IMG/VR virus record: IMGVR_UViG_3300032296_004125
Coordinates: 1-26,547 of that record
DNA: 26,547 nt
Reading direction: 5' to 3' (one strand)
Origin: a virus
How positions within the stretch are numbered: the stretch's first letter is position 1; each line of letters opens with the position of its first letter. Positions 4,508 to 18,511 of this stretch are shown here, piece after piece. A model generated the notes under the pieces. It was not told the origin of the DNA, searched no databases, and saw only the letters and a list, made by a program, of their open reading frames with translations. Both the position numbers and the translations under genes were made by a program.

Positions 4508-4603
4508 CTAATCTCCTTCTGGATCGCAATCCATGCAGTAGTTGTTTTCTTCTCCGAACTCACCAATGAATTCCGCACCACAGTTCTTGCACGTGCAGAT
4601 CAT
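4508..4603 (-). CDS. Tiny zinc-knuckle protein, 31 aa
   Basis: A 31-residue ORF (MICTCKNCGAEFIGEF onward) with five cysteines arranged CTCKNC at residues 3-8 and CMDC at 23-26, a minimal zinc-ribbon pattern. The ATG at 4603 overlaps the TAA of the nuclease gene (TAATG) and the stop is two bases before the GTG of the initiator gene. The final codons contain the AAGGAG that serves that next gene. The short, cysteine-paired sequence resembles zinc ribbons seen as small phage ORFs; role unknown. Confidence 0.55.
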   Translation of the reverse strand: MICTCKNCGAEFIGEFGEENNYCMDCDPEGD

Positions 4604-5475: not shown

Positions 5476-6071
5476 CCAACGAGCTCCGCTCGGCGAGCGC
5501 GGAATCTCTTGATCAAGAACTCACGGGAAAGTTCGTCAATATCAACACCGTCGGCGTTCGACTCATTGATCGACTTTCCAATCTCAGTAAGTTCATCAAT
5601 CGTCTTCGCCTTGGCGAATGCATCGACAAACTTCTGGATGTGTGGCGGGAGTGCGACGTCTTCGTCAAAAACCTCAGCGGCGGCCTTTGCTGCTGACTTT
5701 CCGCCCTTTGACTTGATCTCGTCGTCAGACGCGATTCTCTTTGACGGAAGGCCAGCCATTACCAACGCGCGACCAACTGCCGATGTCTCGCAATTCTCAA
5801 TCTCTGAGCCGCGGGTGTACGGCGTTGCGCCAGGAATCTGCATTGCGCTGTGGCCAATTCCCGCTGGGCGGTCATCCATAAAGCCGAGTGCATCGTCAGG
5901 TCCGTTGTCGCCCTTAACGCCGCGATATGCTCGCGCCTCTACGACTACACGCTTTTCGGTGTGCTCAACAATTCTGGTTTCAATGCGTGCGTTGGGGTAC
6001 GCCTCGTACCATGCGCGGATTCGCTCTGCGACATCCACGTAATCCTTAAGTGCGCTCTTATCGAATGCCAT
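5472..6071 (-). CDS. Putative single-strand annealing recombinase (ERF/Rad52-like)
   Basis: A 199-residue protein. The segment YTRGSEIENCETSAVGRALV (about residues 85-105) is the core of a phage family in which a T/S-rich ENxETSAxGRAL stretch follows an alpha/beta N-terminal domain; I associate it with ERF/Rad52-like annealing proteins, though some databases leave this family unnamed. The C-terminal third is charged and helical. The gene is coupled (ATGA) to the PD-(D/E)XK nuclease downstream, matching the common annealase plus exonuclease pair, and SSB and RusA follow in the operon. It would pair complementary single strands during recombination-dependent replication. Coding status is certain; the annealing role is inferred. 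Confidence 0.55.
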   Translation of the reverse strand: MAFDKSALKDYVDVAERIRAWYEAYPNARIETRIVEHTEKRVVVEARAYRGVKGDNGPDDALGFMDDRPAGIGHSAMQIPGATPYTRGSEIENCETSAVGRALVMAGLPSKRIASDDEIKSKGGKSAAKAAAEVFDEDVALPPHIQKFVDAFAKAKTIDELTEIGKSINESNADGVDIDELSREFLIKRFRARRAELVG

Positions 6072-6339
6072 TTGCTTCCTCCTTATTCAAATACTCATCG
6101 AGGTCCTCGAAGAGTCTTCCTTCTTCAATCCCAAGAAATTCAGAAATCTTCTTGCGCATCGGGCCACTGATAGGCGCCTGACCATACTGCACCTGATTTA
6201 GATAGCCGTACGATACACCAAGATGCTTGGCGATGTATCGCCTCTTGATCCCAGTTTCTTCTAGGAGTTTCCACACCCGAGCAGTTTTCTTCCTCTGAAT
6301 AATGCGCTGCTCCGCAAAATTCGGACCAGTTTGCTTCAT
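6058..6339 (-). CDS. XRE-family HTH DNA-binding protein, 93 aa
   Basis: A Cro/C1-type helix-turn-helix fits residues about 30-78: RRYIAKHLGVSYGYLNQVQYGQ is approximated by helices around I36-L40 and S43-Q49, followed by the usual GPMRKKISEFLGIEEGRLF tail. The N-terminus is basic (QRKKTARVWK). It probably regulates transcription of the early operon or of its own region. It overlaps the annealing gene by 14 bases and its ATG overlaps the upstream stop (TAATG), so it is embedded in the operon and not in a divergent immunity switch. With no integrase or divergent repressor-Cro pair visible, a lysogenic role is not supported. Confidence 0.75.
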   Translation of the reverse strand: MKQTGPNFAEQRIIQRKKTARVWKLLEETGIKRRYIAKHLGVSYGYLNQVQYGQAPISGPMRKKISEFLGIEEGRLFEDLDEYLNKEEANGIR

Positions 6340-6581
6340 TACCCTTCCTTGCTTTCTAGCACTGGATTTGCAACCCAGTCCTCCATCGCTATCGAGATGC
6401 CCCTACGATACGCCAAAATGTCATCGTATGCAACTAGCGTATCAAGGTCGTTGGATGCGGCGTTGGCCGCCTCAAACGCAATCATCTCCTTCGGCTTAAT
6501 ATGAGCGCTCTCGTCAAGAGATTGCTGGAGATACTCCCTGAACTTGCTCCGACCGAGCAGCATCAGTTCCATTTCCTGCAT
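6339..6581 (-). CDS. Hypothetical protein, 80 aa
   Basis: No family is recognised. The protein is soluble, mildly acidic and mostly helical (FREYLQQSLDESAHIKPKE, MIAFEAANAASNDLDTL). The ATG at 6581 has a strong purine-rich ribosome site (GGGGAAGGG) six bases upstream, so this start is preferred although it lies inside the end of the upstream 92-residue ORF. Its stop overlaps the XRE start as TAATG. The close coupling suggests a job with the HTH regulator or recombination genes, but nothing more can be said. Confidence 0.6.
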   Translation of the reverse strand: MQEMELMLLGRSKFREYLQQSLDESAHIKPKEMIAFEAANAASNDLDTLVAYDDILAYRRGISIAMEDWVANPVLESKEG

Positions 6582-6792
6582 TTTCGTCCCTTCCCCTGCC
6601 GTGCACAGTGCACCTATCTAGGACACACTTTGAGGTGTTCGAGCCGGGGGCCTCAATGGCCTCCTCTAAACCCATCACCCTGCCGCCAGGATTACAGTGC
6701 GCGTTCGCACAAAAATACACCTTCAGCCGTAGCTGAAAGAGCGTCCCGCCACATGCGTAGCAAGACAATCCGAGGGCACCCTTATTGGACAT
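6514..6792 (-). CDS. Zinc-ribbon protein, 92 aa
   Basis: The N-terminal 45 residues hold a zinc-ribbon-like pattern, CYAC at 11-14 and CANAHC at 28-33, and the start at 6792 has an excellent SD (AAAGGAGG). The C-terminal 45 residues are Gly/Asp/Asn-rich and overlap the next gene by 68 bases, so the real protein may have lost an earlier stop, or a shift near 6600-6640 may have altered its end. The ribbon part is convincing as coding; the tail is not. Function unknown. Confidence 0.5.
   Translation of the reverse strand: MSNKGALGLSCYACGGTLFQLRLKVYFCANAHCNPGGRVMGLEEAIEAPGSNTSKCVLDRCTVHGRGRDENAGNGTDAARSEQVQGVSPAIS
6601..6613. promoter_or_regulatory. 13-bp palindrome, candidate operator
   Basis: GTGCACAGTGCAC is a perfect palindrome around a central base and lies 20 bases upstream of the 80-residue gene and its XRE partner. 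Such a short palindrome is expected by chance a few times in a window of this size, so only its location makes it a candidate site for the HTH protein encoded at 6058-6339. Confidence 0.2.
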
Positions 6793-6808
6793 ATGCCCCT
6801 CCTTTCAG

Positions 6809-6832
6809 GATATCATCTTACTTGATGATATC
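6809..6832 (-). other. 9-bp inverted repeat spanning a stop codon
   Basis: The arms GATATCATC (6809-6817) and GATGATATC (6824-6832) are perfect inverse repeats with a 6-base loop that contains the TAA of the 57-residue gene, just upstream of the SD of the 92-residue gene. It could tune translation of the next gene or be a weak operator. No U-tract follows on the leftward transcript. Confidence 0.3.
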
Positions 6833-6991
6833 ACCCTTGGTCAAGCCTGCGTTGGGTAGGCACCCAATGTGATATTTGCGATTGCCTCTTTTCACAATAG
6901 GCCCTAGGCCCCTGCCGATGATCCCCGCCGACTTCGCCATGCACTGGCGATTGTCGCATCTTGGTCTAGGAAAGCTCTCCACTTCGATCAT
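6818..6991 (-). CDS. Small Cys-containing basic protein, 57 aa
   Basis: A 57-residue ORF starting at an ATG at 6991 with GAGGG upstream, overlapping the end of the HNH gene by 26 bases. Cysteines lie in CDNRQC (residues 12-17) and C44 with H41, giving a possible C-x4-C-x23-H-x2-C zinc site. The middle is rich in Gly and basic residues (GIIGRGLGPIVKRGNRKYH), suggesting nucleic-acid contact. The sequence is not low-complexity and fits the spacing of its neighbours, so I consider it a real gene. Role unknown. Confidence 0.55.
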   Translation of the reverse strand: MIEVESFPRPRCDNRQCMAKSAGIIGRGLGPIVKRGNRKYHIGCLPNAGLTKGDIIK

Positions 6992-7280
6992 ATTCAAATC
7001 CCTCTAAGTATTCATACAGTGCCTCTCGCCACTTGCGAGAGGATTCTGTTTTCATTTTATGATGCCACCCGCACAGCGTCACCAGATTCCACATCTCCGA
7101 GGGGCCACGCTTGCCAAAGCCAGAGTTAAAGACGTGGTCAAGTTCAAGGACGATCTGCCCGCCGGACCCGAACTGGCTGCCGCACTCATCGTGCATTCCG
7201 ACTCGAGGACCAATGCAACCCCTGTCCCTTTGAAGGACATCTTTCCTCATCTTTGGCGTGACTGGATCTTTATGCCCCAT
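6966..7280 (-). CDS. HNH endonuclease-like protein
   Basis: A 104-residue protein with the HNH pattern: the first motif ELDHV (D48-H49), the central N in MWNLVTLC, and the final CGWHHKMK with paired histidines. Zinc-ligand cysteines near 22, 33 and 70 may support the fold. Small HNH proteins of this size commonly sit near the packaging genes of tailed phages, where some act with terminase; here it lies between the portal and replication genes, and no terminase is visible, so a packaging role is only possible. It could also be a nicking or homing-type enzyme. The ATG overlaps the TAA of the upstream gene (TAATG). Confidence 0.78.
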   Translation of the reverse strand: MGHKDPVTPKMRKDVLQRDRGCIGPRVGMHDECGSQFGSGGQIVLELDHVFNSGFGKRGPSEMWNLVTLCGWHHKMKTESSRKWREALYEYLEGFEYDRSGELS

Positions 7281-7420
7281 TAGACCCTCTTAGATCGCTT
7301 AGCTTTCTTTTTGGGGAGATCCGGCTCTTCGGAAACTGGTCGACGCTTCACCCCGTCCGCTTTCATGACTCGACAGGGGATACAGAAGCATGGCTGCTGG
7401 TGGTAAAACTTATCTGCCAT
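7280..7420 (-). CDS. Tiny Cys-containing protein with basic tail, 46 aa
   Basis: A 46-residue ORF. The N-terminal half has CFCIPC (residues 11-16) and the C-terminal half is a very basic tail (KKKAKRSKRV). The start at 7420 follows the portal stop by six bases, though without a strong SD, and its stop overlaps the HNH start (TAATG). A zinc knuckle plus basic tail suggests nucleic-acid binding. It may be a partner of the HNH protein. Function not known. Confidence 0.55.
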   Translation of the reverse strand: MADKFYHQQPCFCIPCRVMKADGVKRRPVSEEPDLPKKKAKRSKRV

Positions 7421-7426
7421 AGAGAC

Positions 7427-9580
7427 CTATCGCTTTCGCTCTTTGGCCTCAACTGACCTCATCACCTTATTCGACCAGGCCTTTCCCGGATCACCGCCCC
7501 AAAGAGCCCAGGCAATTCTTCCAGCAGATGGGAATCCCTTTTGGCCAGGAGCCCAGCCTTCGCCCTTCTTGTCGACTTCGTGACGTGCAAGGTATGCGCG
7601 CATCTTTCTCACTCTTGCAATTGTCATCTTGTTTCCCGTGAGCATTCTTGCGGTTACTTGACCAGGTCCAATTCCGCCTCTGCCAAACTCTTTTCGCCAA
7701 TCAAGCCCACGTCGCGCTTCTGCCTTTACTCCGGCAGGAACATTAAGGTTGATTGTGTCGGCCTTTTCAACTTCAATATCTCCAAGGTTTGGAATTGCTG
7801 CGCCAGCAGCCTTGTAGGATGAATCGGCTGATGGGTCGTAATAGGAAACGATTGCTGCACCGGCCCGACTAATCTCGCTGACCTTCTGTCTCTTGAAGTA
7901 ATCAATTGCACTTGTCGGGAAGCTGCTTTCATAAACCTCGGCGTCAAATCCCGCTTCGGCAAGCTGACTTCTAACAAAATCAACTTGTCCCTTTGTCGAG
8001 GTGATTGCAACCACCGAAGAGCCGCCCTCAACAAATCCATCTATTGCGTCAATGATGTGTGAAGGGCACTCGTCGCTGAGCAACGCCTCTGCATCAACGA
8101 GAACAACGCTCTTCTTAGACGGTTGCTGATTTGGATTCATTTCAGGATTCGGCTTAGCCTCAAGTTGGTCTTTGCCCTGATCTGGCTCTTGGCTCCCTGC
8201 CCCGTTGTTTCCGGCACCGCCATCTGGGACGTCTCCACCAGGTGTTGGCTCCTGCTCTGGTGCGTCGGGATCGCCAACCTTGCCCTTCAGGTAGAGCTCG
8301 TAATATCTCATTGGCATATACCCAAGCGGGCTTGGCATCCATACCTCATCGCCCATAAGCCCAACGCCTTCCTGGCCGCGCTCCTTAAGCGCGTCATTGA
8401 GTCGAAGCCATGGAAGTCCGGCAAGTGCTGCCTTGTAGTAGTCAGCAACTGTCTGCGCAGACTCGCGACCAACATCAGTGTAGACAAATCGCAAGCCCTT
8501 GTCATAAAGCCAAACAACTTCTCTAGTGATGTAGTCCGCAATAAGTTCGCAAAGCGGAGCAATGCCGTTGTCGGCAGTGAACGCCGCGCCGTACTCTGAC
8601 GAGCTCTTATTCACGTCAAAGTTTAGCCCGATGTCTTGCGGCTGAACGCCGAAGACTGCGCAGATCTTGCGTGCGAGATAGATCTGCCACTCCATGAACT
8701 GCATGTCTCGGTTTGACTGTGCCATAGGAATCCACTTGACCCCCTTACCGCCACCAGTGATCGCGGTCTGGCTCTTGCCTGCGATTTCGCCTTCCCAATA
8801 GTTCTTGAAGGCATCAACCTGATCAGGGCGAACGCCTTCGCCAAGATCAATGATTCCTGGCGGGGTCGCCTGCTCAACAATGTTGTTGTTGTACTTAGCC
8901 GCCCGAAGGTCCGCCTCAATGGTCTCAGCAAGAACTTCTAGCGGTGAGAGGCCGAGCGGGGAATACGTCACTCGGTTTCCCACAATGACAATCATCTCTT
9001 CGTTCAGGTACTCGGCAATGATCTTTCCGGTCTCGTCGTATTCAAAGTATCGCGGCTTCTTTAGGTTTGTTCCGTCCCAGTCCGGGTCGAAGGCAATTCT
9101 TGCACCGTCTTTTGGCCAGAGGTTCTTAACCGGTCTTCCGCTTCTTCCCGCCCGCGCCCCGACAGTGTGTTCCTTCTCAATACAGCCCTGATCCAGGACA
9201 AGAATATCCTCAACGATCGGCTCGATAAACGATCTCCACGAATCAAGACGAGTATTTGGATCTCGCAAAAGATCCTTAATCGCCTTTACGTTTGCTTCGT
9301 TGATTTCACCGTTGCCATCAATGCTGACAATGTCCCACTTTGCGCGGCTGATCTGCTGCCTGCGAAGATTAATTGCAGATCTAATCCATGGGTTTGTTCG
9401 GGACCACTTGCGAAGCTGATTAACTGAACGCTTCTGCACAGTACCCTTGCCAGCGCCTCGCGCGTAAGGCTGCGAGTCGTAATTTGGAATAAGGATTGCA
9501 TCCTTTATTGCTTGAACATCAGCTTCTGCTTGCGTGCTTTCAACTTGGCGCTTTACGCGCTCCCACGGCATCATTACCAC
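7427..9580 (-). CDS. Phage portal protein with C-terminal HAD-like domain
   Basis: A 717-residue protein. Residues about 20-432 are an HK97-type portal core, with features such as NPWIRSAINLRRQQISRAKW, the GNRVTYSPLGLSPLE segment and YLARKICAVFGVQPQDIG. The dodecameric portal forms the vertex through which DNA is packaged and ejected. A Pro/Gly/Gln-rich linker (433-489) leads to a divergent HAD-like domain (490-605; VVLVDAEALL, VVAITST, then VSYYDPSAD) and a conserved C-terminal module (613-706) with ARRGL, YLARHEVDKKGEGW and SAGRIAWALWGGDPGKAW. The GTG at 9580 has AGGAG eight bases upstream; an ATG at 9574 overlapping the upstream TAA is an alternative. It is on the opposite strand to the protease and capsid genes, which is unusual. 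Confidence 0.9.
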   Translation of the reverse strand: MVMMPWERVKRQVESTQAEADVQAIKDAILIPNYDSQPYARGAGKGTVQKRSVNQLRKWSRTNPWIRSAINLRRQQISRAKWDIVSIDGNGEINEANVKAIKDLLRDPNTRLDSWRSFIEPIVEDILVLDQGCIEKEHTVGARAGRSGRPVKNLWPKDGARIAFDPDWDGTNLKKPRYFEYDETGKIIAEYLNEEMIVIVGNRVTYSPLGLSPLEVLAETIEADLRAAKYNNNIVEQATPPGIIDLGEGVRPDQVDAFKNYWEGEIAGKSQTAITGGGKGVKWIPMAQSNRDMQFMEWQIYLARKICAVFGVQPQDIGLNFDVNKSSSEYGAAFTADNGIAPLCELIADYITREVVWLYDKGLRFVYTDVGRESAQTVADYYKAALAGLPWLRLNDALKERGQEGVGLMGDEVWMPSPLGYMPMRYYELYLKGKVGDPDAPEQEPTPGGDVPDGGAGNNGAGSQEPDQGKDQLEAKPNPEMNPNQQPSKKSVVLVDAEALLSDECPSHIIDAIDGFVEGGSSVVAITSTKGQVDFVRSQLAEAGFDAEVYESSFPTSAIDYFKRQKVSEISRAGAAIVSYYDPSADSSYKAAGAAIPNLGDIEVEKADTINLNVPAGVKAEARRGLDWRKEFGRGGIGPGQVTARMLTGNKMTIARVRKMRAYLARHEVDKKGEGWAPGQKGFPSAGRIAWALWGGDPGKAWSNKVMRSVEAKERKR

Positions 9581-9813
9581 GAGTCTTGCTCCTTCGGCTT
9601 TCTTGTTCTCCAGGACCTTATCGCATTAGAAACAGCCATGCCATCAAGGTCCTTGTTGACAATCTGTCTAGCTTCTGTGTAATTAAAAGGTATAAGTCGC
9701 ACTCCGTCAACTATACCAACTCCTCTAAATGAAGGAAGCCTTCCCCACCATTTTGGCACAACGAACTTGCCGTCTTCAAACTGCAGCTCGATGCTCTCGC
9801 TAATGTCAAGCAC
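9574..9813 (-). CDS. Hypothetical protein, 79 aa
   Basis: A 79-residue soluble protein, no family recognised, with a beta-like N-terminus (IELQFEDGKFVVPKWWGRL) and a basic end (IRSWRTRKPKEQ). The start is a GTG at 9813 overlapping the TAG of the upstream gene, with AAGG upstream. Its stop overlaps the portal start region. Position between a Cys-rich protein and the portal suggests a head or packaging accessory role, by context only. Confidence 0.6.
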   Translation of the reverse strand: MLDISESIELQFEDGKFVVPKWWGRLPSFRGVGIVDGVRLIPFNYTEARQIVNKDLDGMAVSNAIRSWRTRKPKEQDSW

Positions 9814-10334
9814 TACTTTTCGCCTTCCTCGTCGCCTTCGGACTCAGTGTTTGAGCCAATCGCAACCATGGCCATCTCAAGCCCTGCATAATCTTCCATA
9901 TCAAATGGGTTTTCCTTTCGGAAAGTTTCCCAGAAGCCATCGTACTCCTTGTCGTTAACATCTTCCAGCCTTGTGAGTTCTTCTTCGACATGGCGCTGGT
10001 ATTTGATCTGCTGGGGAACGCTTCGTTTAACCCTTGAAAGCACCTTGTGGCACTGCTTACAAACGGAGTATCTTTTTTGACCCTTTGCCCTGGGGACCAT
10101 TGGCTCTGGAATAAGGTCTTGCTCCATATGGTCCTCACCGACCATTATTGTGCATAGGGCGCACCTTGGATGCGCCCGATGTATCTCCTCGTATCTTCTC
10201 ATGACTGGCGCCAGGGTCTTCTGGATGCGCCGTATGGCCAGCACGATATCGAGAATACCGCCCTCAGCGTCGTTTAGCTCTAAGCACAACCGGCACTTGA
10301 CTGCCGTATCTTCACACATGCGGCAATTATACAT
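9813..10334 (-). CDS. Four-CxxC zinc-binding protein, 173 aa
   Basis: A 173-residue protein with eight cysteines in four CxxC pairs: C4/C7, C14/C17, C58/C61 and C92/C95, enough for two zinc sites. The middle is helical and basic; the C-terminus is strongly acidic (SEGDEEGEK). The pattern suggests DNA or protein binding, but no family is clear. It is the first gene of the leftward operon, directly opposite the head operon. No SD is visible before the ATG at 10334; TAGTAT lies nine bases upstream and could be a -10 element for a leaderless or near-leaderless transcript. It could be a packaging factor in the place where terminase is normally found, but this is speculation. Confidence 0.65.
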   Translation of the reverse strand: MYNCRMCEDTAVKCRLCLELNDAEGGILDIVLAIRRIQKTLAPVMRRYEEIHRAHPRCALCTIMVGEDHMEQDLIPEPMVPRAKGQKRYSVCKQCHKVLSRVKRSVPQQIKYQRHVEEELTRLEDVNDKEYDGFWETFRKENPFDMEDYAGLEMAMVAIGSNTESEGDEEGEK

Positions 10335-10515
10335 AGACCGTAAATACTAGTCATTGACACGCTATGGTAGATTCATGTAGGAAGCAAAGGTCTTGCAATA
10401 ATGAATATAAGAGGGGATGATTCGATGGTGCTTATACGGGACTATCTGCTGACACCGATGTCTAACAGGGGTTCCGATCGGCCTGTCGACGGCCATAAGA
10501 ATTGGGGGTCTGATC
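10335..10515. promoter_or_regulatory. Divergent promoter region between leftward and head operons
   Basis: This 181-base region separates the start of the leftward operon (10334) from the protease start (10516), so it must hold promoters for both unless read through. A TTGACA sits at 10354-10359 on the plus strand, but no good -10 lies 16-18 bases downstream (TAGGAA is the best). TAGTAT on the minus strand, just before 10334, is a candidate -10. The plus part also contains a possible leader ORF (10401-10526). The elements are weak, and phage-specific factors may be needed. Confidence 0.35.
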
Positions 10516-10526
10516 TTGGACTTTAA
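10401..10526 (+). CDS. Possible leader peptide, up to 41 aa
   Basis: An ORF of 41 codons from an ATG at 10401, or 33 codons from the ATG at 10425, the latter with GAGGGG eight bases upstream. It ends at a TAA at 10524-10526, overlapping the TTG start of the protease by 11 bases. The sequence (ending KNWGSDLGL) does not match a family I know. The overlap would couple translation of the protease, whose rare TTG start might need it. It may be only a chance ORF. Confidence 0.3.
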   Translation: MNIRGDDSMVLIRDYLLTPMSNRGSDRPVDGHKNWGSDLGL

Positions 10527-12723
10527 AATTTACACCAACGCCCTGAAGGCCTATGAGTCTGAAGATGGCGAGCGATATGTAACCGGAACAACTTCTTCAA
10601 CAATTCGGGACCTGCATGGCGATGAGATGTCGCTGGATGCCCTGAAGACAATGGCTGAAACAGCCAGACAGAATATGACGGTGTTCCTCAATCATAATTA
10701 CAATGTCCCAGAAGACCTTTTTGGCTCCGCCACGGATGCCCAGATTGTTAGACGATATGACAGCGAAACAAACGAAGAGGTTTATGACCTCGATCTCAAT
10801 ATTCGGGTGGTAAACGAAGACGAAAACCCGGAGGCGCTTCGCGCTTATCGCGCAATCAAGCGCGGGGTTAAGCTTGGTCTCTCCATTGGAGCCCGCGTTG
10901 AAAAGGCGCGTCGCAAGGCTGCCGAAGGAGACAAGCCCGAGTCAATCCTTATTGAGAAGGTTCGCCTACTTGAGGCGAGCGTTGTTGGCATTCCTGCCAA
11001 CCAGAGATCCTACCTGCAGAACGCAGTAAAGAGCCTCCGCTCTGGTAGCGTCGATATTAGCGAGCTTGAGGGCGTGATCGAAGAAGAGAAAGCGCCTGCA
11101 TCTGCCGCAATTGAAGAGATGACGCTGAGGGCCTCCGCAATCATTGAGAAGCTGAAGGCGCTTCCCGTTGAGGGGGAGACTGCCGCCGAGGCAAAGCCCC
11201 TTGTGGATTCGCTTGCAAAGCTTCTTGCCGATGTGGCAACGCTTTACATCAAGGCCCAGGGCGCGCACTGGAATGTCGTTGGCCCAGATTTTACTCAGTA
11301 TCACGATCTTTTCGAAGAGATCTATGAGGACGTATACAAGTCCATTGATCCTATTGCCGAAAACATTAGAAAGCTTAACGCGCCTGCCCCAGCGGAGCTT
11401 CGCGAGATGGCACTTATGGCCTCTCAGATGCCCGTAGCAGACGACTACGACCCAGAGAGCCTTGCGTCCGCGCTGTATGCGGCCAACGAGCTCGTTCTTC
11501 GCAGCATCATGAACGCTTTCGCCGAAGCGAACAAGCTCAACGAGCAGGGAATTGCAAACTTCCTTGCTGAGCGCCAGGACATGCACCAGAAGTGGTCGTG
11601 GCAGCTTAGGTCTTCCCTTGCGGAAGAGGAAGAGGATACCGGCGAGGGCGGAATTGATGAGGAAGACACCGGTGAAGAGTCGGAGGACGAGGAGACTGAA
11701 AAGTCTGCTGGTTCAAAGATTGGATTTGGTGACTTCGTTGCCTGGAAAGACACCGACGGGCCCGGCGGGTACGGCGAGGTTGAGCAGGTAGTTAAGGAAG
11801 GTGCTGTTGTTGTTCCGAAGTCAAATGAGGAAGTAGCAGCAGTTCCAAATGATCCGGCAATTTTGGTGCGCATCTGGGCGCAAGAATCTGAGGGCAAGTA
11901 TAAGCCGACTGGCGAGTTCATTGGTCTTTTGGCCTCAATGGTCAAGAAGGTCAGTGGCCCAGGCGAGGGCGCCGAGGGCGCACCAAGTCAGACTGCCACC
12001 CAGATTCCGGGTCTTGAGATTCTCCCACCTGGAACAGTTCCAGGCGGGGCAAGTTCACAGGAGAAGTCCATGGATATCGAAGAGAAGAAGACTCGTGTGA
12101 CCGTTACGGTCAGCACGGATTCTGAAGAGAAGCAGCCAGCTGCCGCATCTGTTGCTCCCTCCGCTCCGGATGCGGCAGCCGCGGACTCAGAGGAGAAGCT
12201 TGATGAAATCAAGGCTTCTGCCGAAGATGTGGCCGATGGCGAAGTTACTGAGAAGGTAGAGGACGAGAAGGAAGTCGTTGAGGAAGAGCCTGTCGACGCC
12301 AATGTCGAGGCCCTGCAAGAGCTCGGCGCTGAGCTCGTTACCGGCGACGCTGAAAAGTCCATTGCCGATGAATCATCCGTACAGCCCGAAGTGGCCGAGG
12401 CGGTTGTTATTAGTGTCGAGACCGAGGCCTCTTCCTTTGAGGAAGTGGAGTCGATCGCGAAGTCAGCTCTCGATGCAGCCAATGCTGCTCAGGAGGAGGT
12501 TACCGGCCTTTCGGCAAGAGTGACCGAGCTCCTTGAGTCGAAGGCCAAGGTCGAAGAAGATCTTGCGAAAGCGCTCGATCTTATTGATCGCATTAGCGAT
12601 CTTGGGATCGGTCGAAAGTTCGTCGACAGGAGTTCACAGAAGGTCAACGTCAAGGCCGCAGAGCGCGCGCCTTGGTTGAGCCCATATGTTCAGCGCGTCC
12701 TTGAGGCGCAAGACGAGGAGTAA
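10516..12723 (+). CDS. Prohead protease fused to Dps-like, Tudor-like and scaffold-like domains
   Basis: A 735-residue head maturation protein. Residues 1-175 are an HK97-type prohead serine protease: likely catalytic H60 (FLNHNYNVPEDLFGS) and S123 (GLSIGA), then LLEASVVGIPANQRSYL. Residues about 225-370 form a complete Dps/ferritin-like four-helix domain, with H251 (AHWNVVGPDF), H263, E267, D278 and E282 at the ferroxidase positions, and a Dps-like last helix (FLAERQDMHQKWSWQLRSSL). After an acidic linker, residues 400-480 (FGDFVAW...) resemble an SH3/Tudor-like domain found in phage proteases. Residues 480-735 are Ala/Glu-rich with a final coiled coil, like a scaffold. The start is TTG at 10516 behind GGGGGT; no in-frame ATG exists upstream. 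The capsid gene follows two bases later. Confidence 0.88.
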   Translation: MDFKIYTNALKAYESEDGERYVTGTTSSTIRDLHGDEMSLDALKTMAETARQNMTVFLNHNYNVPEDLFGSATDAQIVRRYDSETNEEVYDLDLNIRVVNEDENPEALRAYRAIKRGVKLGLSIGARVEKARRKAAEGDKPESILIEKVRLLEASVVGIPANQRSYLQNAVKSLRSGSVDISELEGVIEEEKAPASAAIEEMTLRASAIIEKLKALPVEGETAAEAKPLVDSLAKLLADVATLYIKAQGAHWNVVGPDFTQYHDLFEEIYEDVYKSIDPIAENIRKLNAPAPAELREMALMASQMPVADDYDPESLASALYAANELVLRSIMNAFAEANKLNEQGIANFLAERQDMHQKWSWQLRSSLAEEEEDTGEGGIDEEDTGEESEDEETEKSAGSKIGFGDFVAWKDTDGPGGYGEVEQVVKEGAVVVPKSNEEVAAVPNDPAILVRIWAQESEGKYKPTGEFIGLLASMVKKVSGPGEGAEGAPSQTATQIPGLEILPPGTVPGGASSQEKSMDIEEKKTRVTVTVSTDSEEKQPAAASVAPSAPDAAAADSEEKLDEIKASAEDVADGEVTEKVEDEKEVVEEEPVDANVEALQELGAELVTGDAEKSIADESSVQPEVAEAVVISVETEASSFEEVESIAKSALDAANAAQEEVTGLSARVTELLESKAKVEEDLAKALDLIDRISDLGIGRKFVDRSSQKVNVKAAERAPWLSPYVQRVLEAQDEE

Positions 12724-12725
12724 AA

Positions 12726-13961
12726 ATGTCTGAAGTACGAGAGAAGTTGGATGACGTCGCGAAGGGCCTAGAGTCCCTCAACGGCGCTCCGATCGGCCGA
12801 GATCTCGATGTCGAGAAGAAGTCCGATTTTGATCCTGCTGAGGCCTATGCCGTTCAGCGCGAACTTCGCAAGAAGTTCTCAAAGATGAGCGCATCGGAAC
12901 TCAACGAGATGCTTGATGTTCAGGCCTCGCGAGAAGTTGGGAAGCAGGCTGATGCCGGTATCCTTAACCAGCTTGCGTTGTCGAACCCACAGATTGCAAA
13001 GGCACTTGACAGCAGCGGTGGTTCGGCGCTTATCCGCCAGGACCTCGAGCCAATCCTTTACAGCCTGTTCGTTAAGAAGTTCCCATTCTTTGACCGCATC
13101 CGCAAGGAGCCTGCAAACGGCCTCGTGCACGCGTTCAATCAGCAGACCGCTTACGGTGATGCAGTCTTCCAGACGGAGACCGGCACTGTAACCGACGATA
13201 ACTCGACGTATGCTCGCCAGACGACCAATGTGGCCGTTCTTGCGACCCGCCGTGGTATCACGCTTAAGAATCAGTTCGCGCTTGGTCAGGGCGGCTCGCC
13301 GTTCAATGGCCTTTCGCAGGAGCTTGGCAGCGGCGTAACCGCCATTGCGCACAAGCTTCAGAAGACCCTGTTCCAGGGCAACGCAACCGTTACGGCAAGC
13401 GCCGGTGCCAACACCGAGCTTGGTGCTTATGACGCCAACTCGTTCGATGGCCTCCGCAAGCTTCTTGGTACGGCTGCTTCAGCTGGCAACGAGATTGTTG
13501 GGAAGGGCACGGCTTCATACCTGTCCACCATCAACGAAGCAGTTGCTGGAGTTCTGGACAACGGTGGCGCTCCGTCGGCCGTCATCTGCACCCCAACCGA
13601 CTACGCAGGCCTTGTGAATGAGCTTACAAACCTCGTTCGTTACAATGCGCCTTCGCAGACGGAGCAGGCTGCTGGTGCAACCTTCGGTTCCGTCGTGACG
13701 GCTGCTGGCTCACTGCCAATCCTTGCCGTTCCTGGCGATGCCATTGGTCAGTACGCAGTTTCCGGCACCGACTACCGCGATATGTACGTGGTGGACGAGG
13801 CTGGCTGGTCGATGCCATACCTTGGCTCCGACTCAATCACGACGCTCGAGATTCCGATCGGCGTGAACGGTGCCCTTACGCGCCTCTACATCATGTATGT
13901 GATGTTCGGGTTTGCAAACAAGGCTCCACAGTTCCAGGCGAAGGTTCGCGTTACGGTCTAA
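12726..13961 (+). CDS. Major capsid protein (HK97 fold)
   Basis: A 411-residue protein directly after the protease fusion, as expected for an HK97-type major capsid protein. The N-terminal 100 residues are charged and helical (RELRKKFSKMSASELNEML), fitting a delta or scaffold segment that the protease would remove. The rest is a long alpha/beta capsid fold, with LIRQDLEPILYSLFVKKFPF at the N-arm, the E-loop-like QTETGTVTDDNSTYARQTT, and a C-terminal TRLYIMYVMFGFANKAPQF. It self-assembles into the icosahedral shell. The ATG at 12726 follows the protease stop by two bases. A perfect 12-bp hairpin follows the stop, which could protect or limit the transcript. Confidence 0.92.
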   Translation: MSEVREKLDDVAKGLESLNGAPIGRDLDVEKKSDFDPAEAYAVQRELRKKFSKMSASELNEMLDVQASREVGKQADAGILNQLALSNPQIAKALDSSGGSALIRQDLEPILYSLFVKKFPFFDRIRKEPANGLVHAFNQQTAYGDAVFQTETGTVTDDNSTYARQTTNVAVLATRRGITLKNQFALGQGGSPFNGLSQELGSGVTAIAHKLQKTLFQGNATVTASAGANTELGAYDANSFDGLRKLLGTAASAGNEIVGKGTASYLSTINEAVAGVLDNGGAPSAVICTPTDYAGLVNELTNLVRYNAPSQTEQAAGATFGSVVTAAGSLPILAVPGDAIGQYAVSGTDYRDMYVVDEAGWSMPYLGSDSITTLEIPIGVNGALTRLYIMYVMFGFANKAPQFQAKVRVTV

Positions 13962-13979
13962 TCCGTAAGTATTGCAACT

Positions 13980-14008
13980 GGGGCCCCAGGATTAATTCCT
14001 GGGGCCCC
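13980..14008 (+). other. Strong 12-bp hairpin after the capsid gene
   Basis: GGGGCCCCAGGA (13980-13991) and TCCTGGGGCCCC (13997-14008) form a perfect 12-bp stem around a TTAAT loop. No T-run follows, and the next SD (AAGGAG) starts eleven bases later, so it is more likely an mRNA stabiliser or attenuator than a full terminator. It separates the highly needed capsid gene from the downstream genes. Confidence 0.65.
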
Positions 14009-14027
14009 GGAAGCGAAGGAGCAATAA

Positions 14028-14348
14028 ATGTTTGACGATGTTAAGAAGGAAACACCAACGGTTGATGTAAATGCAGTTGCCAAGAAGGCCGTAACCGCAG
14101 CTAAGGCTGCGGTTTCAGACGACGAGGTAGTTCGCGTACGAAACCACAGCGGTCTTTCTTCGCTTGTTTTTGGAGACGGCACCGTTGCCCGTTTCCACGA
14201 GGGTGTCGCGCGCATTAAGGCTAAGTACCTAGTCCAGGCTGTTGCCCAGGGCTGCACGGTCGAGACTGATGCACCGGCAGCTCCGAAGCAGGAGCTTTCG
14301 GCCGCCCAAAAGGCCGAGCTTGAAAAGGTTTTCGGCAAGTCCGAGTAA
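14028..14348 (+). CDS. Small head-region protein, 106 aa
   Basis: A 106-residue protein between the capsid and connector genes. The N-terminal 30 residues are Lys/Ala/Val-rich and helical (AVAKKAVTAAKAAV), followed by a compact beta-like core (EVVRVRNHSGLSSLVFGDG, ARIKAKYLVQAVAQGCTVE) and a helical charged C-terminus. It has a clear SD (AAGGAG) before the ATG. I do not recognise the family. The position fits a capsid accessory or decoration protein. It is flanked by two strong hairpins, which could set its expression relative to the capsid and the connectors. Confidence 0.65.
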   Translation: MFDDVKKETPTVDVNAVAKKAVTAAKAAVSDDEVVRVRNHSGLSSLVFGDGTVARFHEGVARIKAKYLVQAVAQGCTVETDAPAAPKQELSAAQKAELEKVFGKSE

Positions 14349-14361
14349 TCAATCTAGCTTC

Positions 14362-14410
14362 AATGGGGCTCGCAGACACTTTTTTAGTGCAATGCGGGCC
14401 CTATTGTTTT
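14362..14410 (+). terminator. Likely intrinsic terminator inside the head operon
   Basis: Arms 14362-14373 (AATGGGGCTCGC) and 14394-14405 (GCGGGCCCTATT) pair over 12 bp with two G-U wobbles, with an inner CACT/AGTG stem around five T residues. GTTTTA follows the stem. On the plus strand this is a good terminator, though the short T-run suggests partial readthrough into the connector genes. Confidence 0.6.
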
Positions 14411-14421
14411 AGGATGTGAAA

Positions 14422-15336
14422 ATGATAAGAGTGAACGTATCTGTCCCGAATCCAGCTACCGCAGCCGCAACATATACAGGGATTCAAATCGGTAAGGCCG
14501 CGTCCCAGGCCGACGCAAGCACCCAGACCGGAACGTTTTCCAATCTTGGTACCGTAATAACGCTTGACGCCAAGATCGGTACGTACTCATATTCGGACAG
14601 CGATTCACCTTATGGCTACTGGTACGTATGGCGACTGACTGGGAGCTCGAACAACGGCGCCTGGTCAAGTCCGTATCAGGGCGTTGACACTGGCTATGTG
14701 ACGGTTGCTGAGCTCCGAGAATACGAGCTTGGATCACTCTCCCTGCCAGATGGAAGCGACTCGAGCGACAACAGGCTTGAAAAGCTGGTTGGCGTCGCCT
14801 CCAGGATGGTTGACGGATACTGCGGGTTCTCATTCAGATACAAGACCACAGTTGAGCAGCACAAGTGGAACCAGGAGACAAGAAGGGTGTTCCCGTACTC
14901 TAGGCCAATCATTACCGTCAATTCATTTGAGGTATTTGTTAGCAATCAGCAAAAGGCCACTTTCAACCTTTCAGACCTGTTCATAAACACAAGTCAAAAC
15001 TATGTTGAAGTGACAAGCCTGGCGAACGTAACCTACTCCATATTCCCCGCAATTGTTGCTCTTGGGCTTATCGATCCGGTAGCCAGGATCAACTATACCC
15101 ACGGATACACCGTGACGCCTCAGGAGATCAAAGACGCGACTGCGCTGATCGCCATAGACCTCGCCTCAAGGGACGCGCTCTATCAGACTGGAATGGGCCA
15201 ATTGACAAGGCTTACGGTTGGCGACACAACAATGGAAAGGCTTCCGCAGGTTGCCCCAGGGAAGCAGTCTGCGCTGGCAATACCGCCAACGGCAGCGGCA
15301 ATCCTTGACCAGTACATCGCGGTGTCTATTCGATGA
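14422..15336 (+). CDS. Head-tail connector protein with N-terminal beta domain
   Basis: A 304-residue protein. Residues about 95-304 look like an HK97 gp6-type head-tail adaptor: TVAELREYELGSLSLPD, a helical RLEKLVGVASRMVDGYCGFSF, then a beta-rich part and a final helix (TAAAILDQYIAVS). It would form the ring under the portal. The first 90 residues (IQIGKAASQADASTQTGTF, GYWYVWRLTGSSNNGAW) look like an FN3/Ig-like domain, a common addition to phage structural proteins. I use the ATG at 14422, which has AGGA seven bases upstream; a GTG at 14416 is the alternative. The stop overlaps the next gene as ATGA. Confidence 0.75.
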   Translation: MIRVNVSVPNPATAAATYTGIQIGKAASQADASTQTGTFSNLGTVITLDAKIGTYSYSDSDSPYGYWYVWRLTGSSNNGAWSSPYQGVDTGYVTVAELREYELGSLSLPDGSDSSDNRLEKLVGVASRMVDGYCGFSFRYKTTVEQHKWNQETRRVFPYSRPIITVNSFEVFVSNQQKATFNLSDLFINTSQNYVEVTSLANVTYSIFPAIVALGLIDPVARINYTHGYTVTPQEIKDATALIAIDLASRDALYQTGMGQLTRLTVGDTTMERLPQVAPGKQSALAIPPTAAAILDQYIAVSIR

Positions 15337-15668
15337 TCCCAGGGGCAATGACAACCGTCACCCTTAAGCGAAAAGGGATGACGACACAGGACGCAACTGG
15401 AACCCCAGTGACCATAGATGAGATTATCTGGTCAAAGAAGTGCCACTACCAATCGCTTCGAGAAGACGGGAGCAGGGAGCACGCCAACCCAACCGGGCCA
15501 GCATCTAGGCAGGTTTATCGCTTCTGGACACCGTACCTCGAGGGCAGGGATCGCCCTAGGCTGAACGACAGAATGGTGGCGGACTCCTACGAGTTTCGCG
15601 TCATCGCGATTGACTTCGAGGCAGTCCGCCACCATCTTCTTGTTCGCGCAGAGAGGGTCGAGCGTTAA
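15333..15668 (+). CDS. Head closure / head-tail joining protein
   Basis: A 111-residue protein that directly follows the gp6-like adaptor with an ATGA overlap. The small beta-barrel layout, with basic start (TVTLKRKGMTTQDATGTP), IDEIIWSKKC and a C-terminal RVIAIDFEAVRHHLLVRAERV, fits SPP1 gp16-type head closure proteins that seal the connector after packaging. The family is assigned by position and general pattern; no single motif decides it. Its TAA and the TAA of the converging metallophosphoesterase gene share the tetranucleotide TTAA at 15665-15668, leaving no room for a terminator between the two operons. Confidence 0.65.
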   Translation: MIPGAMTTVTLKRKGMTTQDATGTPVTIDEIIWSKKCHYQSLREDGSREHANPTGPASRQVYRFWTPYLEGRDRPRLNDRMVADSYEFRVIAIDFEAVRHHLLVRAERVER

Positions 15669-16870
15669 TTCAGTTTACAACGCAAAACCTTCATATCGTC
15701 CCAACCGTTTGAATCTACCACCAAGGTAAGAATCCCAGTCGGGGCGTCAACCCCAGCAACTTCCTTATACCACTGAGAGCCGCCATCAAGGCTTGGGGCC
15801 TGGATATGCGTTCTTGCACCATGCGTTGACATCGCAAGGTGATGGTAGTGACCCGTCAAGAGAAGCGTGGCATCAGATACGGGCTGCATGCCAAGAGCCT
15901 GCTTTGCCCACCAATTCTCCACTTTTCCTACTGCATTGCTGCCGCCTCGTCGAGCCTGATGCCCGTGGGCAAGCCCAACCACCGTCCCGTAGACGTCAAG
16001 CGTCAGGGTCAAGTCATTCTTTGGAATCACAAACTTGACGTGTCCAAATGCGTCTGGATTGGCGGAAAGAATCTCTGCCACCTGCTCAAACACGGCAACG
16101 TCGTCATTGTCTCCAAAGGTTGTAAACGCCTTACCGCCTCGCCTGTTTTCACCATGGTTCCCAGGCACGCAAGCAACGATCACCTCTGGGGAAAACTTAG
16201 ACCACTGCATAATGGCCTTCGTAATCAGCCTTCGGGCAACCGTAATTTGCTCTCGACGATCAAGGTCTGCCTGGAACGCCTGCATGTCGTAGTGTCCGTC
16301 GCAGTTCTCGATGATGTCACCGAGGCCAACAACAACTAAACGTGATAGCGGCCTGCCAAACTTCCTTAGTTCCTTCCAGCGATTTTCAACCTCATTAATC
16401 CCAGCAAGGAAGCGCTCAACAATCTTGACGCTTCCGCCGTTTTCTCCCTTTCCGAGCTGTAGGTCTGATATCGCAACAATCATTGCGCGACCGTCTGATG
16501 AAACCTCTGGCCTGGAGAACTTGTGCTTCTTAATCTCCTCGACCATCTCCTGGACGTCTGCGCCCATCGAGGCGACCTTTCGGACAACCTTGCCCTTCCA
16601 TTGTCGATTCAATACGCCAAGCGTGTCTCCCCAGACATTGAATAGCACTGGCTCAACAACCTCAAAGTGTTCAGGGTCAAGACCCCAAACCCTAAGAACC
16701 GTTGCCCAGTCTGGTGCATTTTCTGCTGGCATTCCAGTGGTCGTAACAGTCCCCTCGTTGCCGTTCCACTGCACGCCTGGCTCCCACCCTTCTGGGTGTT
16801 GTCGCCTTGGCTTTTTTGCGTTTTCCATATCTCGCTGAACTGCGAGTATTTTTTCAAATTCTTCGCTCAT
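15665..16870 (-). CDS. Calcineurin-like metallophosphoesterase
   Basis: A 401-residue protein. The phosphoesterase domain (about 125-400) shows SDLQLG (D136), GLGDIIEN (D185, N189), PGNHGE (N238, H239), AHGHQ (H302, H304) and TGHYHH (H341, H343), the set of metal ligands of the calcineurin-like family. The first motif normally reads DxH but here is DxQ (Q138), so one metal ligand is altered. The N-terminal 100 residues carry a phage-specific domain (HPEGWEPGVQW, then WGLDPEHFEV). Similar proteins occur in many siphoviruses, but their substrate is unknown; they may act on nucleic acid or cyclic nucleotides. Its start overlaps the stop of the HTH gene (ATGA) and it shares that gene's promoter. 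Confidence 0.85.
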   Translation of the reverse strand: MSEEFEKILAVQRDMENAKKPRRQHPEGWEPGVQWNGNEGTVTTTGMPAENAPDWATVLRVWGLDPEHFEVVEPVLFNVWGDTLGVLNRQWKGKVVRKVASMGADVQEMVEEIKKHKFSRPEVSSDGRAMIVAISDLQLGKGENGGSVKIVERFLAGINEVENRWKELRKFGRPLSRLVVVGLGDIIENCDGHYDMQAFQADLDRREQITVARRLITKAIMQWSKFSPEVIVACVPGNHGENRRGGKAFTTFGDNDDVAVFEQVAEILSANPDAFGHVKFVIPKNDLTLTLDVYGTVVGLAHGHQARRGGSNAVGKVENWWAKQALGMQPVSDATLLLTGHYHHLAMSTHGARTHIQAPSLDGGSQWYKEVAGVDAPTGILTLVVDSNGWDDMKVLRCKLN

Positions 16871-17109
16871 CGTTCACACCCGCACTGACCGCGACGATGC
16901 CGAGACATCGTATGCGGCTTCACGGAATATCCTTTCTGACCCAGCCAGCGAGCGATCGCAGTCGACTGAATCGTTTCGTCTTTCATCGCCTCCTTGAAGG
17001 CGGTTTGCTCTTGAGCGGCAAGACGCGTGTACGTCAAGCCGATTGCGCACGACGGGCCCTTCCTTGCGGAGTCCTTGCGCATTTCATCTAGCATGTCACT
17101 AACTGACAT
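16867..17109 (-). CDS. Small HTH-like DNA-binding protein, 80 aa (possible TerS-like)
   Basis: An 80-residue protein. The C-terminal part (IQSTAIARWLGQKGYSVKPH, then SRHRRGQCGC) resembles the HTH of small phage proteins that sit beside this type of metallophosphoesterase; some are called terminase small subunit-like, but I cannot confirm that. The start at the ATG 17109 is chosen for its AAGGAG with six-base spacing; a longer TTG start at 17124 is weaker. It has its own promoter (17157-17185), and a palindrome at the likely transcription start (17132-17149) could be its operator for autoregulation. If it is a TerS, the large subunit lies elsewhere. Confidence 0.6.
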   Translation of the reverse strand: MSVSDMLDEMRKDSARKGPSCAIGLTYTRLAAQEQTAFKEAMKDETIQSTAIARWLGQKGYSVKPHTMSRHRRGQCGCER

Positions 17110-17131
17110 TTCCATCTCCTTCAACCTTTAC

Positions 17132-17149
17132 CTTGGCATACAGGCCAAG
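17132..17149. promoter_or_regulatory. Candidate operator palindrome
   Basis: CTTGGC (17132-17137) and GCCAAG (17144-17149) form a perfect 6-bp inverted repeat with a 6-base gap, placed right at the predicted transcription start of the promoter at 17157-17185 and upstream of the HTH gene. The position suits autorepression or a 5' mRNA hairpin. The short arms mean chance is possible. Confidence 0.35.
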
Positions 17150-17156
17150 TGAAATG

Positions 17157-17185
17157 ATCATAACAAATAGACGAAAAGTTTTCAA
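17157..17185 (-). promoter_or_regulatory. Sigma-70-type promoter for HTH and metallophosphoesterase genes
   Basis: On the minus strand TTGAAA (17185-17180) is followed after exactly 17 bases by TATGAT (17162-17157), each one mismatch from consensus. It lies directly after the terminator of the tail-lysis operon and before the HTH gene, which is just where a new promoter is needed. Predicted start of transcription is about 17150. Confidence 0.7.
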
Positions 17186-17197
17186 CATACGTGTGGA

Positions 17198-17231
17198 TAA
17201 AGAAAGACCCCCAGGGTTTCCCCTGGGGGTC
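17198..17231 (-). terminator. Intrinsic terminator of the tail-lysis operon
   Basis: On the minus strand GACCCCCAGGG pairs with CCCTGGGGGTC (11 bp, perfect) around a GAAA tetraloop and is followed by TTTCTTTAT. This is a strong rho-independent terminator, placed eight bases after the stop of the basic peptide gene. Confidence 0.88.
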
Positions 17232-17238
17232 CTCTATA

Positions 17239-17364
17239 TTATCGAGAGAAGATTCGGGCTAGTAGGCCCTTCTTTGCCTTGGGCTTTGGTGCCTTTGGCG
17301 CTGCCTTCTTCGATGGAGAAGCCTTTTTTGCTGCTGGCTTCTTTGTCTTCTTAGTTGCTGCCAT
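17239..17364 (-). CDS. Lys/Ala/Pro-rich basic peptide, 41 aa
   Basis: A 41-residue peptide with 15 lysines in repeats like those of histone H1 tails (KKTKKPAAKKASPSKKAAPK) and a C-terminal amphipathic patch GLLARIFSR. It is the last gene before the terminator and follows the holin-like gene. Such composition suggests DNA or membrane binding; candidates are a DNA condenser, an internal virion peptide or a membrane-active lysis accessory. Start ATG at 17364; the SD (AAAGGG) is rather far away. Two small hairpins lie between the holin stop and this gene (17385-17398 and 17403-17421). Coding is likely from position and composition; function unknown. Confidence 0.55.
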   Translation of the reverse strand: MAATKKTKKPAAKKASPSKKAAPKAPKPKAKKGLLARIFSR

Positions 17365-17411
17365 GTCAATTACCGTCCCTTTCTCGGCCATTTGGCCGTG
17401 GAACGAGTATA

Positions 17412-17807
17412 TCAGACTCGTGGCTTGGTGTCTTCCTCATCGTCAAGCGAGCCGTAGGCCTCATTGGCAAGGCTTCCTGCAAGCTCGTCAGCGATTCCGT
17501 CTCCGTCGGTATCGATAGCAGTTCCCTGAATGTGGGACGTGGAAGCCTTCTCGGCGGCAACGGCCTTCGCCTTGCCTACGCCAAACTTCCCGTCCTCTGG
17601 GTTCAGGGCGCGGACAATGACCTGGAGGCATGCGGCAAGACCAGCCGAAATTACCGTTCTGAAGTCTCCGCCGCTGATGTCAAGAAGCGGGATTCCTAGA
17701 CCAAGGGCAACGGCGATCGAGGTTGCAATAAAGGCACGGGCGGCCTCCAGGAGCATCTCGTCGATTCCGGTGTTGTCTTTAATCCAAATAAGTGCGCTCT
17801 TAATCAT
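17412..17807 (-). CDS. Holin-like membrane protein with EF-hand-like motif
   Basis: A 131-residue protein next to the endolysin gene. Two hydrophobic segments are visible, about residues 23-44 (AARAFIATSIAVALGLGIPL) and 50-68 (RTVISAGLAACLQVIVRAL), with an N-terminal amphipathic helix, which suits a class II-type holin that permeabilises the membrane for lysin release. The C-terminal 60 residues are soluble and acidic and contain DTDGDGIADEL (99-109), an EF-hand or dockerin-like calcium loop, uncommon in holins. AGGA precedes the ATG at 17807. Holin function is inferred from membrane profile and neighbour. Confidence 0.65.
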   Translation of the reverse strand: MIKSALIWIKDNTGIDEMLLEAARAFIATSIAVALGLGIPLLDISGGDFRTVISAGLAACLQVIVRALNPEDGKFGVGKAKAVAAEKASTSHIQGTAIDTDGDGIADELAGSLANEAYGSLDDEEDTKPRV

Positions 17808-17822
17808 TATTCAAAATCCTCT

Positions 17823-18446: not shown

Positions 18447-18511
18447 CTGAAACCCCCTAACTAGAACCCCATTTGAGGCTATGTCATTTTACCAGCGCAA
18501 GGCTGGTTTTT

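Follow-up and report, generated by a model that had tools for sequence, protein, structure and literature searches.

The virus record IMGVR_UViG_3300032296_004125 in IMG/VR supplies a stretch of 26,547 nucleotides (positions 1 to 26,547 of the record; hereafter 'the window') in which a prohead protease gene carries an embedded module of the ferritin-like Dps family. The gene lies at 10516..12723 on the plus strand and is a single open reading frame (ORF) with a TTG start that encodes 735 amino acids (aa). Its N-terminal part (residues 1-176; 10516..11043, plus strand) is assigned by Pfam and PHROG matches to an S78-type prohead protease domain: Peptidase_S78 matches residues 102-170 (E 5.7e-6, 27.0 bits against a Pfam cut-off of 21) and PHROG 80, a head maturation protease family, matches the 735-aa protein (E 3.2e-9). 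The S78 profile of Pfam matches all 38 non-redundant relatives of the protease, and H60, S123 and E153, which are probably the catalytic residues, are invariant in all of them. Comparison of the protease with solved structures, by single sequence or by profile, gave no significant match. The Dps module follows across an acidic tether predicted to be disordered, with a conserved extent of about residues 209-371 (11140..11628, plus strand) and helices at residues 224-368, as defined by profile and structure matches.

Several comparisons bear on the fold of this module. PHROG 3636 (a Dps-type 'DNA binding protein' family) matches residues 227-368 with E 6.3e-27, Pfam Ferritin matches residues 232-369 above its Pfam cut-off (E 2.1e-13), and the best solved chain is 8ff9, the P. 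aeruginosa Dps PA0962 (E 8.3e-24, about 32-33% identity). An AlphaFold2 model of the module, made from 21 phage copies, has a predicted local distance difference test (pLDDT) score of 88.5 and comprises four long helices, with a short one in the loop that joins the second to the third (B-C). When this model was compared with the PDB, Foldseek returned PA0962 in its top rows (TM 0.81-0.87), and VIA-align 2 gave Z values of 18.7-20.9 among the 50 matches listed, nearly all of which are Dps. The match to the Dps fold is far past chance. A first-pass annotation, made from the letters of the window, had read a whole Dps fold at residues 225-370 and had pointed to a search against Dps structures; the fold and its location are borne out, and the conserved extent is slightly longer than was proposed.

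On these profile and model grounds, residues 224-368 of the prohead protease are predicted to form a full Dps fold, whose ferroxidase ligand set is intact. H251 (11266..11268), H263 (11302..11304), D278 (11347..11349) and E282 (11359..11361), all on the plus strand, align without gaps to H37, H49, D64 and E68 of PA0962. In that protein the ligands are described as lying at a subunit interface, where H37, D64 and E68 serve one iron and H49 and E68 the other (PMC10002758). By alignment, then, the module carries the Dps ligand set of His, His, Asp and Glu. The four residues are invariant in all 21 Dps copies of the window's protease family and are kept in 78 of 78 non-redundant Dps modules from viral contigs, across very different contexts. 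H251 lies inside one of the two search patterns of each Dps scan, such that its invariance is partly selected; H263, D278 and E282 are in none of the patterns. The annotation had singled out these four residues, and their retention in homologues agrees with it. It had also assigned E267 to the ferroxidase site, an assignment that we reject because this residue is not among the iron ligands named for PA0962 (PMC10002758) and the position is variable in relatives, where it is E, G, A, Q, S, K, N or L (eight letters). Formation of the PA0962 12-mer needs divalent metal or pH 6.0, with metal bound at those same ligands (PMC10002758). Given this dependence, the ligands of the phage module could serve assembly as well as catalysis, and their conservation by itself is no proof of enzymatic use.

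Family-wide comparison of sequences indicates that the stretch between the protease domain and the C-terminal helix is a cassette region that is either empty or filled by Dps, by Tudor-like modules or by an unnamed module. When viral contigs were scanned with the whole protein, 79 loci were kept, which reduce to 38 non-redundant proteins at 95% (window included), and Pfam recognises Ferritin in 21 and Hva1_TUDOR in 16 of these, a Dps share that is biased upward because one pattern of the scan lies in the Dps part. An added protease-only scan brought the total to 47 non-redundant proteases. The 45 complete ones display 14 arrangements of the protease, Dps, two Tudor-like types (A and B, which overlap in the models used) and the unnamed module of 110 aa. 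Neither Pfam nor PHROG gives a match to this last module at E 0.1, and the name D6582 is therefore unsupported for it. The set obtained with protease patterns only (80 loci kept of 149 confirmed) contains 68 complete ORFs, among which 19 have a full Dps, 4 a partial one and 45 none. Fifteen records of the window's family, 28-91 kb in length and possibly incomplete, contain one Dps in eight cases, always in an ORF of protease length, and none in seven; no Dps was found outside the protease gene in these records. Proteases with an in-frame C-terminal half of Dps, from which both His-bearing helices are gone, were seen at the loci designated L059 (2163-3809) and L061 (5905-7551) and occur in several contigs.

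The exchange of this cassette can be followed at the window itself. Relative to locus L026, which belongs to a 73-kb record, the window is 98.5% identical over positions 4516-11090 and 97.5% identical over 12081-18575, and in between lies a 990-bp block (11091..12080, plus strand) with Dps and the Tudor-like module that is swapped for 384 unrelated bases in these otherwise about 98% identical phages. Loci L025 and L028 have the same break points as L026, and both break points fall in Glu/Lys-coding linker sequence. The replacement module is unrelated and has no Dps fold, and the block was not found anywhere else in the records to which L028 and L026 belong (G008 and G009, respectively). Between L021 and L057, another pair, identity is 92.7% for the Dps DNA and 70.5% for the protease DNA. 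On the protease tree, the presence of Dps requires at least 14 changes, 10 of them forced by well-supported branches, and is without detectable clustering (128 of 500 label shuffles are as low). The median ratio of nonsynonymous to synonymous substitution rates (dN/dS) is 0.078 for Dps (17 usable pairs; 69 saturated pairs dropped) and 0.054 for the protease (103; 483 dropped), as against 0.30 for Tudor A (91; 176 dropped), 0.315 for Tudor B (87; 179 dropped) and 0.344 for the C-terminus (596; 103 dropped). These comparisons show that the Dps cassette is exchangeable and that purifying selection on it is strong, and the module appears to be maintained, where present, as an enzyme-like domain.

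Furthermore, as the first-pass annotation had proposed to look for, other fusions of Dps to head-maturation proteases exist, and Pfam and PHROG place them in PHROG 80, 2753, 9427, 3270 and 18402. A scan with the family's Dps gave 132 confirmed loci (80 kept), and a broader Dps scan gave at least 574 (80 kept), from which 78 Dps ORFs were tabulated, the other two loci being already in the set: 20 are no longer than 230 aa, 58 are longer, and 28 have a recognised protease. Dps is found downstream of the S78 protease in the same protein at L182 and L184, N-terminal to it at L189, L203, L211 and L216, and behind proteases of PHROG 2753 (L201), 9427 (L209) and 3270 (L180), while at L208 it is part of a 1,859-aa portal and protease protein (PHROG 859 and 18402). 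The L189 protein combines Dps with a Tudor-like and the unnamed module, a module set identical to that of the window's family. Some Dps ORFs without a recognised protease are located between portal and capsid genes (L286) or immediately downstream of the portal gene (L284, L250). Ten unexplained long Dps ORFs were scanned, of which three matched DUF5824, one PHROG 2859 and one (L267) a Zeta-toxin and a minor head protein, the others being mostly Dps alone.

Individual loci add some detail. A single ORF of 804 aa at L267 (5566-7977) unites Dps with a Zeta-toxin domain and with a match to a minor head protein. At L209 (3828-6110) a DUF6321 domain (E 3e-29) stands between the PHROG 9427 protease and Dps, as another accessory module in a similar position, and a small gene next to a standalone Dps at L293 (5699-5992) looks similar by eye only. 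The protease ORF (413-1294) and Dps ORF (1267-2919) of L235 overlap by 28 bases in different frames, which may reflect a split or a frameshift of the fusion at this locus.

In a tree with 91 rows, all 78 modules from viral contigs fall on one branch (support 99/98), separate from a narrow outgroup that consists of nine rows from a single bacterial phylum and four from phage isolates. As Dps patterns were used to retrieve the viral rows, these outgroups are the only ones against which the clade is tested. The bootstrap had not settled, and 28 of the 87 inner branches are open. Against that outgroup, the viral-contig modules would constitute one viral clade, and their branch mixes different protease families, N- and C-terminal fusions and standalone genes. 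Changes of context on the tree number 24 with all groups and 21 without the bacterial and isolate rows, both values being too high owing to a 'long_other' label that takes in contig-cut members of protease families (L077, L196).

Among cultured phages, a comparison of the whole protein with 50,697 phage records at E 1e-5 did not find the fusion and returned 11 records in which only the Dps part was matched. Two other Dps modules matched 9 and 7 records. Four of all the loci so obtained were looked at, with the other ORF lengths unchecked. Such proteins are also represented in viral model libraries, under automatic names, by three entries of 333, 763 and 432 aa called 'Prohead protease' and by a 622-aa 'Dps' that is 65% identical to the window's module. 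A scan of genome contigs with the protease gave one relative, which is without Dps: L081 (9971-11200), on a contig of an Anaerolinea (Chloroflexota) metagenome-assembled genome (MAG), encodes a protease of 409 aa that has no modules, and a similar capsid gene comes next, which may hint at hosts among the Chloroflexota. A search for Dps in this MAG found none, and 40 of 151 genomes of its phylum have Dps matches at 23-37% identity.

The remainder of the window's protein, also encoded on the plus strand, begins with an acidic linker (residues 372-399; 11629..11712) that has a net charge of -14 and is predicted to be disordered. It leads to a beta-rich Tudor-like module (11713..11961), whose Hva1_TUDOR match exceeds the Pfam cut-off in relatives and falls short of it in the window protein. 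A second, low-complexity acidic linker (residues 483-639; 11962..12432; net charge -30) is mostly predicted to be disordered and includes EKKTRVTVTVSTD at 12076-12120, a segment that is conserved in many family members and at which the cassette swap ends; it might serve in recombination as an anchor, or as a site of cleavage or docking. The conserved C-terminus (residues 640-735; 12433..12720), with a long helix at 640-695 and a terminal helix at 723-734, may be the part that targets the protein to the head. A model of the full 735 aa is weaker (pLDDT 60.9, predicted TM score (pTM) 0.31) and depicts folded units joined by disordered tethers, namely the Dps helices at 224-368, the beta module at about 407-479 and the long helix at 640-695, with pLDDT below 50 at residues 372-399, 483-594 and 604-639.

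The gene sits in a head module. The major capsid protein gene (12726..13961, plus strand; SU10_MCP E 3.2e-9, PHROG 752 E 1.7e-12) starts two bases past the protease stop, and a portal gene (7427..9580, minus strand) and a head-tail adaptor gene (14416..15336, plus strand; PHROG 442) are close by. The portal protein has a C-terminal PHROG 2859 accessory domain (residues 605-714). PHROG 2859 also matches the Dps proteases of L189 and L211, L244, the portal-protease protein of L208 and neighbours of the Dps ORFs in L237 and L267, and looks like another accessory module of head proteins.

Given that the fusion partners have the head in common, the likeliest shared purpose of these fusions is to bring Dps into the procapsid. 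The occurrence of Dps as part of head proteins in many uncultured phages suggests that an iron- and peroxide-handling protein is taken into the capsid with the DNA. We therefore tentatively favour, as a real possibility, the reading that Dps is an exchangeable cargo which enters the procapsid on the protease and there handles iron and peroxide near the DNA. The idea that Dps is brought into the head was already part of the first-pass annotation; recurrent fusion to head-maturation proteases and to portal-linked and minor head proteins supports it indirectly, and it is from these fusions to head proteins that we infer head entry itself.

The proposed mechanism would run as follows. As prohead proteases generally are, the protease would be built into the procapsid, which would place several tens of Dps subunits inside the shell. 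These would pair and probably assemble mini-ferritin shells too big to exit, and about 70 protease copies would make about six such shells. A Dps 12-mer is about 9 nm wide. It could hardly leave the shell, whereas protease fragments could, and the protease would release Dps by cutting the tethers. In the head, Dps would oxidise and store Fe(II) with hydrogen peroxide, and thereby keep Fenton damage away from the packaged genome or from the head during its assembly. Targeting of the protease to the head may fall to the conserved C-terminal helix, in the manner of the C-terminal propeptide of the SPN3US protease, for which targeting to the prohead core has been proposed (PMC7411985). For phage T4, we read a table row as giving 72 protease copies in the prohead and 3 in the mature head (PMC9026906), and the T4 internal proteins are described as proteins that are directed to the prohead, are cleaved by its protease and are retained in the head (PMC9026906, PMC7411985).

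Several observations weigh against this reading. Near-identical phages (about 98% in protease, capsid and flanking genes) live without Dps, and a full Dps is present in 21 of the 47 non-redundant proteases and thus missing from more than half; in the set found with protease patterns only, reduced at 95% (n=37), 16 proteins have a full Dps, 2 a partial one and 19 none. Because Dps is absent from near-identical phages and from more than half of the family, its benefit is not essential. Two clusters retain only the C-terminal half of Dps, without the ligand-bearing helices. Standalone Dps genes of the same clade make up 22 of the 78 viral tree rows, and local models recognised no protease in the fetched flanks of these 22 loci. 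The dN/dS value of 0.078 for Dps comes from few pairs, which are not independent of one another. Finally, the Dps module is acidic (pI 4.6), as are the flanking tethers, and simple electrostatic DNA binding by it is therefore unlikely. DNA binding and protection are not universal among Dps proteins.

The alternative that survives best, which we consider unlikely, is that the head packages Dps for action after ejection, when it would enter the host with the DNA and blunt iron- or peroxide-based stress or defence early in infection. The fast gain, loss and exchange of the cassette among close relatives resembles that of host-interaction cargo, and the L267 ORF, where Dps is joined to domains of a Zeta toxin and of a minor head protein, fits the same idea. 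The T4 proteins IPI-III and Alt are reported to be cut by the prohead protease, to remain in the head and to enter the host (PMC7411985, PMC9026906). A folded dodecamer, however, would be far wider than portal and tail, and ejection would demand its disassembly.

We judge as distinctly improbable a structural role in which Dps drives oligomerisation of the protease or assists nucleation of the scaffold core, with the metal ligands used for assembly and not for catalysis. The metal-dependent 12-mer of PA0962, with metal at the same ligands, would accommodate such a role (PMC10002758), and the full-length model, with its folded units on disordered tethers, is consistent with it. Yet the module is missing in more than half of the family and in about 98% identical phages, where the replacement has no Dps fold, and this patchy presence argues against an essential assembly role. 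An 'assembly core' had been among the first suggestions for this domain; as an essential function it is disfavoured by the absence of the cassette from near-identical phages.

A still smaller chance is given to a cytoplasmic function of Dps in the infected cell, either ahead of packaging or with no packaging at all, for which the fusion would merely be a means of late expression. Standalone phage Dps proteins are known and have been interpreted as protecting the infected host (PMC8008677, PMC6669764), and standalone members of the same Dps clade are present in viral contigs. However, the fusion partners are repeatedly head proteins rather than random late proteins, and a procapsid-bound protease would be an odd and probably low-copy carrier for a cytoplasmic protein. 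Neutral hitchhiking, or a gene-prediction or assembly artefact, could draw on the patchy presence of Dps, the half-deleted copies and the origin of all sequences from metagenome contigs, but is very improbable, and a one-off fusion or assembly artefact is rejected, given one uninterrupted ORF in the window and other contigs, Dps-bearing and Dps-less versions that each occur in several contigs, recurrence of the fusion in other families, ligands retained across contexts and low dN/dS.

Carriage of Dps into the procapsid also admits a broader and more speculative version, which we regard as conceivable but doubtful: several tailed-phage lineages might have turned the head into a ferritin compartment, in which a viral Dps clade, spread by cassettes, rides head-maturation proteases into the HK97-fold procapsid and stays as an iron- and peroxide-handling core by the genome. 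Prohead proteases are usually viewed as assembly tools that are consumed in the process. If our reading is true, proteases that bring folded enzymes into the head would represent a route of delivery to the virion interior that is undescribed in the literature searched, with a ferritin-type enzyme as the best-kept cargo here. Phages would gain a direct defence against oxidative damage or free iron in and around the packaged genome. Their heads would be linked to encapsulin-ferritin compartments; in the broader version, they would be the viral equivalent of that organelle and would supply iron inside virions. The iron carried by phage particles is a debated question, on which such a finding would bear.

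Among known systems, the closest to the module is bacterial PA0962 (8ff9), with which it shares the fold, the short B-C helix, all four iron ligands and about 32-33% identity. PA0962 is a free protein, whereas the window's module lies within a prohead protease and has an acidic tether at either end. Standalone Dps proteins of Gratiaviridae, other gut phages and Lactobacillus phages, and of S-SRM01, BUCT695 and BS162P1, have the same ligands and are likewise phage-encoded. They differ in being separate small genes (ORFs of 149-163 aa at the four loci examined) with about 25-36% identity to these modules. The window protein shares its protease domain, and its gene position before the capsid gene, with S78 prohead proteases (PHROG 80), but ordinary members are without the cassette, and L081, the member from a bacterial assembly, consists of a 409-aa protease plus the C-terminus with no modules. 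No fusion of a prohead or maturation protease with Dps or ferritin was described in the literature searched, which excluded most subscription journals and bioRxiv.

With regard to principle, the window's Dps would work like T4 IPI-III and Alt, which are variable and dispensable prohead cargo handled by the prohead protease (PMC9026906, PMC7411985). The T4 cargo, however, consists of separate proteins with capsid-targeting propeptides, whereas in the window the protease itself includes the cargo, whose fold is ferritin-like. Encapsulins have the HK97 fold and can hold ferritin-like cargo, sometimes as a fusion (PMC8346489), and a ferritin-like enzyme in an HK97-fold shell would be a similar principle (PMC8346489). 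The window does not hold an encapsulin shell in a cellular operon: the record is viral, its shell is encoded by a phage capsid gene, and genes for portal, adaptor and tail are present. It differs from encapsulins in that the shell is that of a tailed phage and the Dps cargo is fused to the protease, not to a shell protein or a targeting peptide. Both the parts and the principles, which are internal head proteins and ferritin-type cargo in HK97-fold shells, are known, and what seems undescribed is their combination, which recurs widely.

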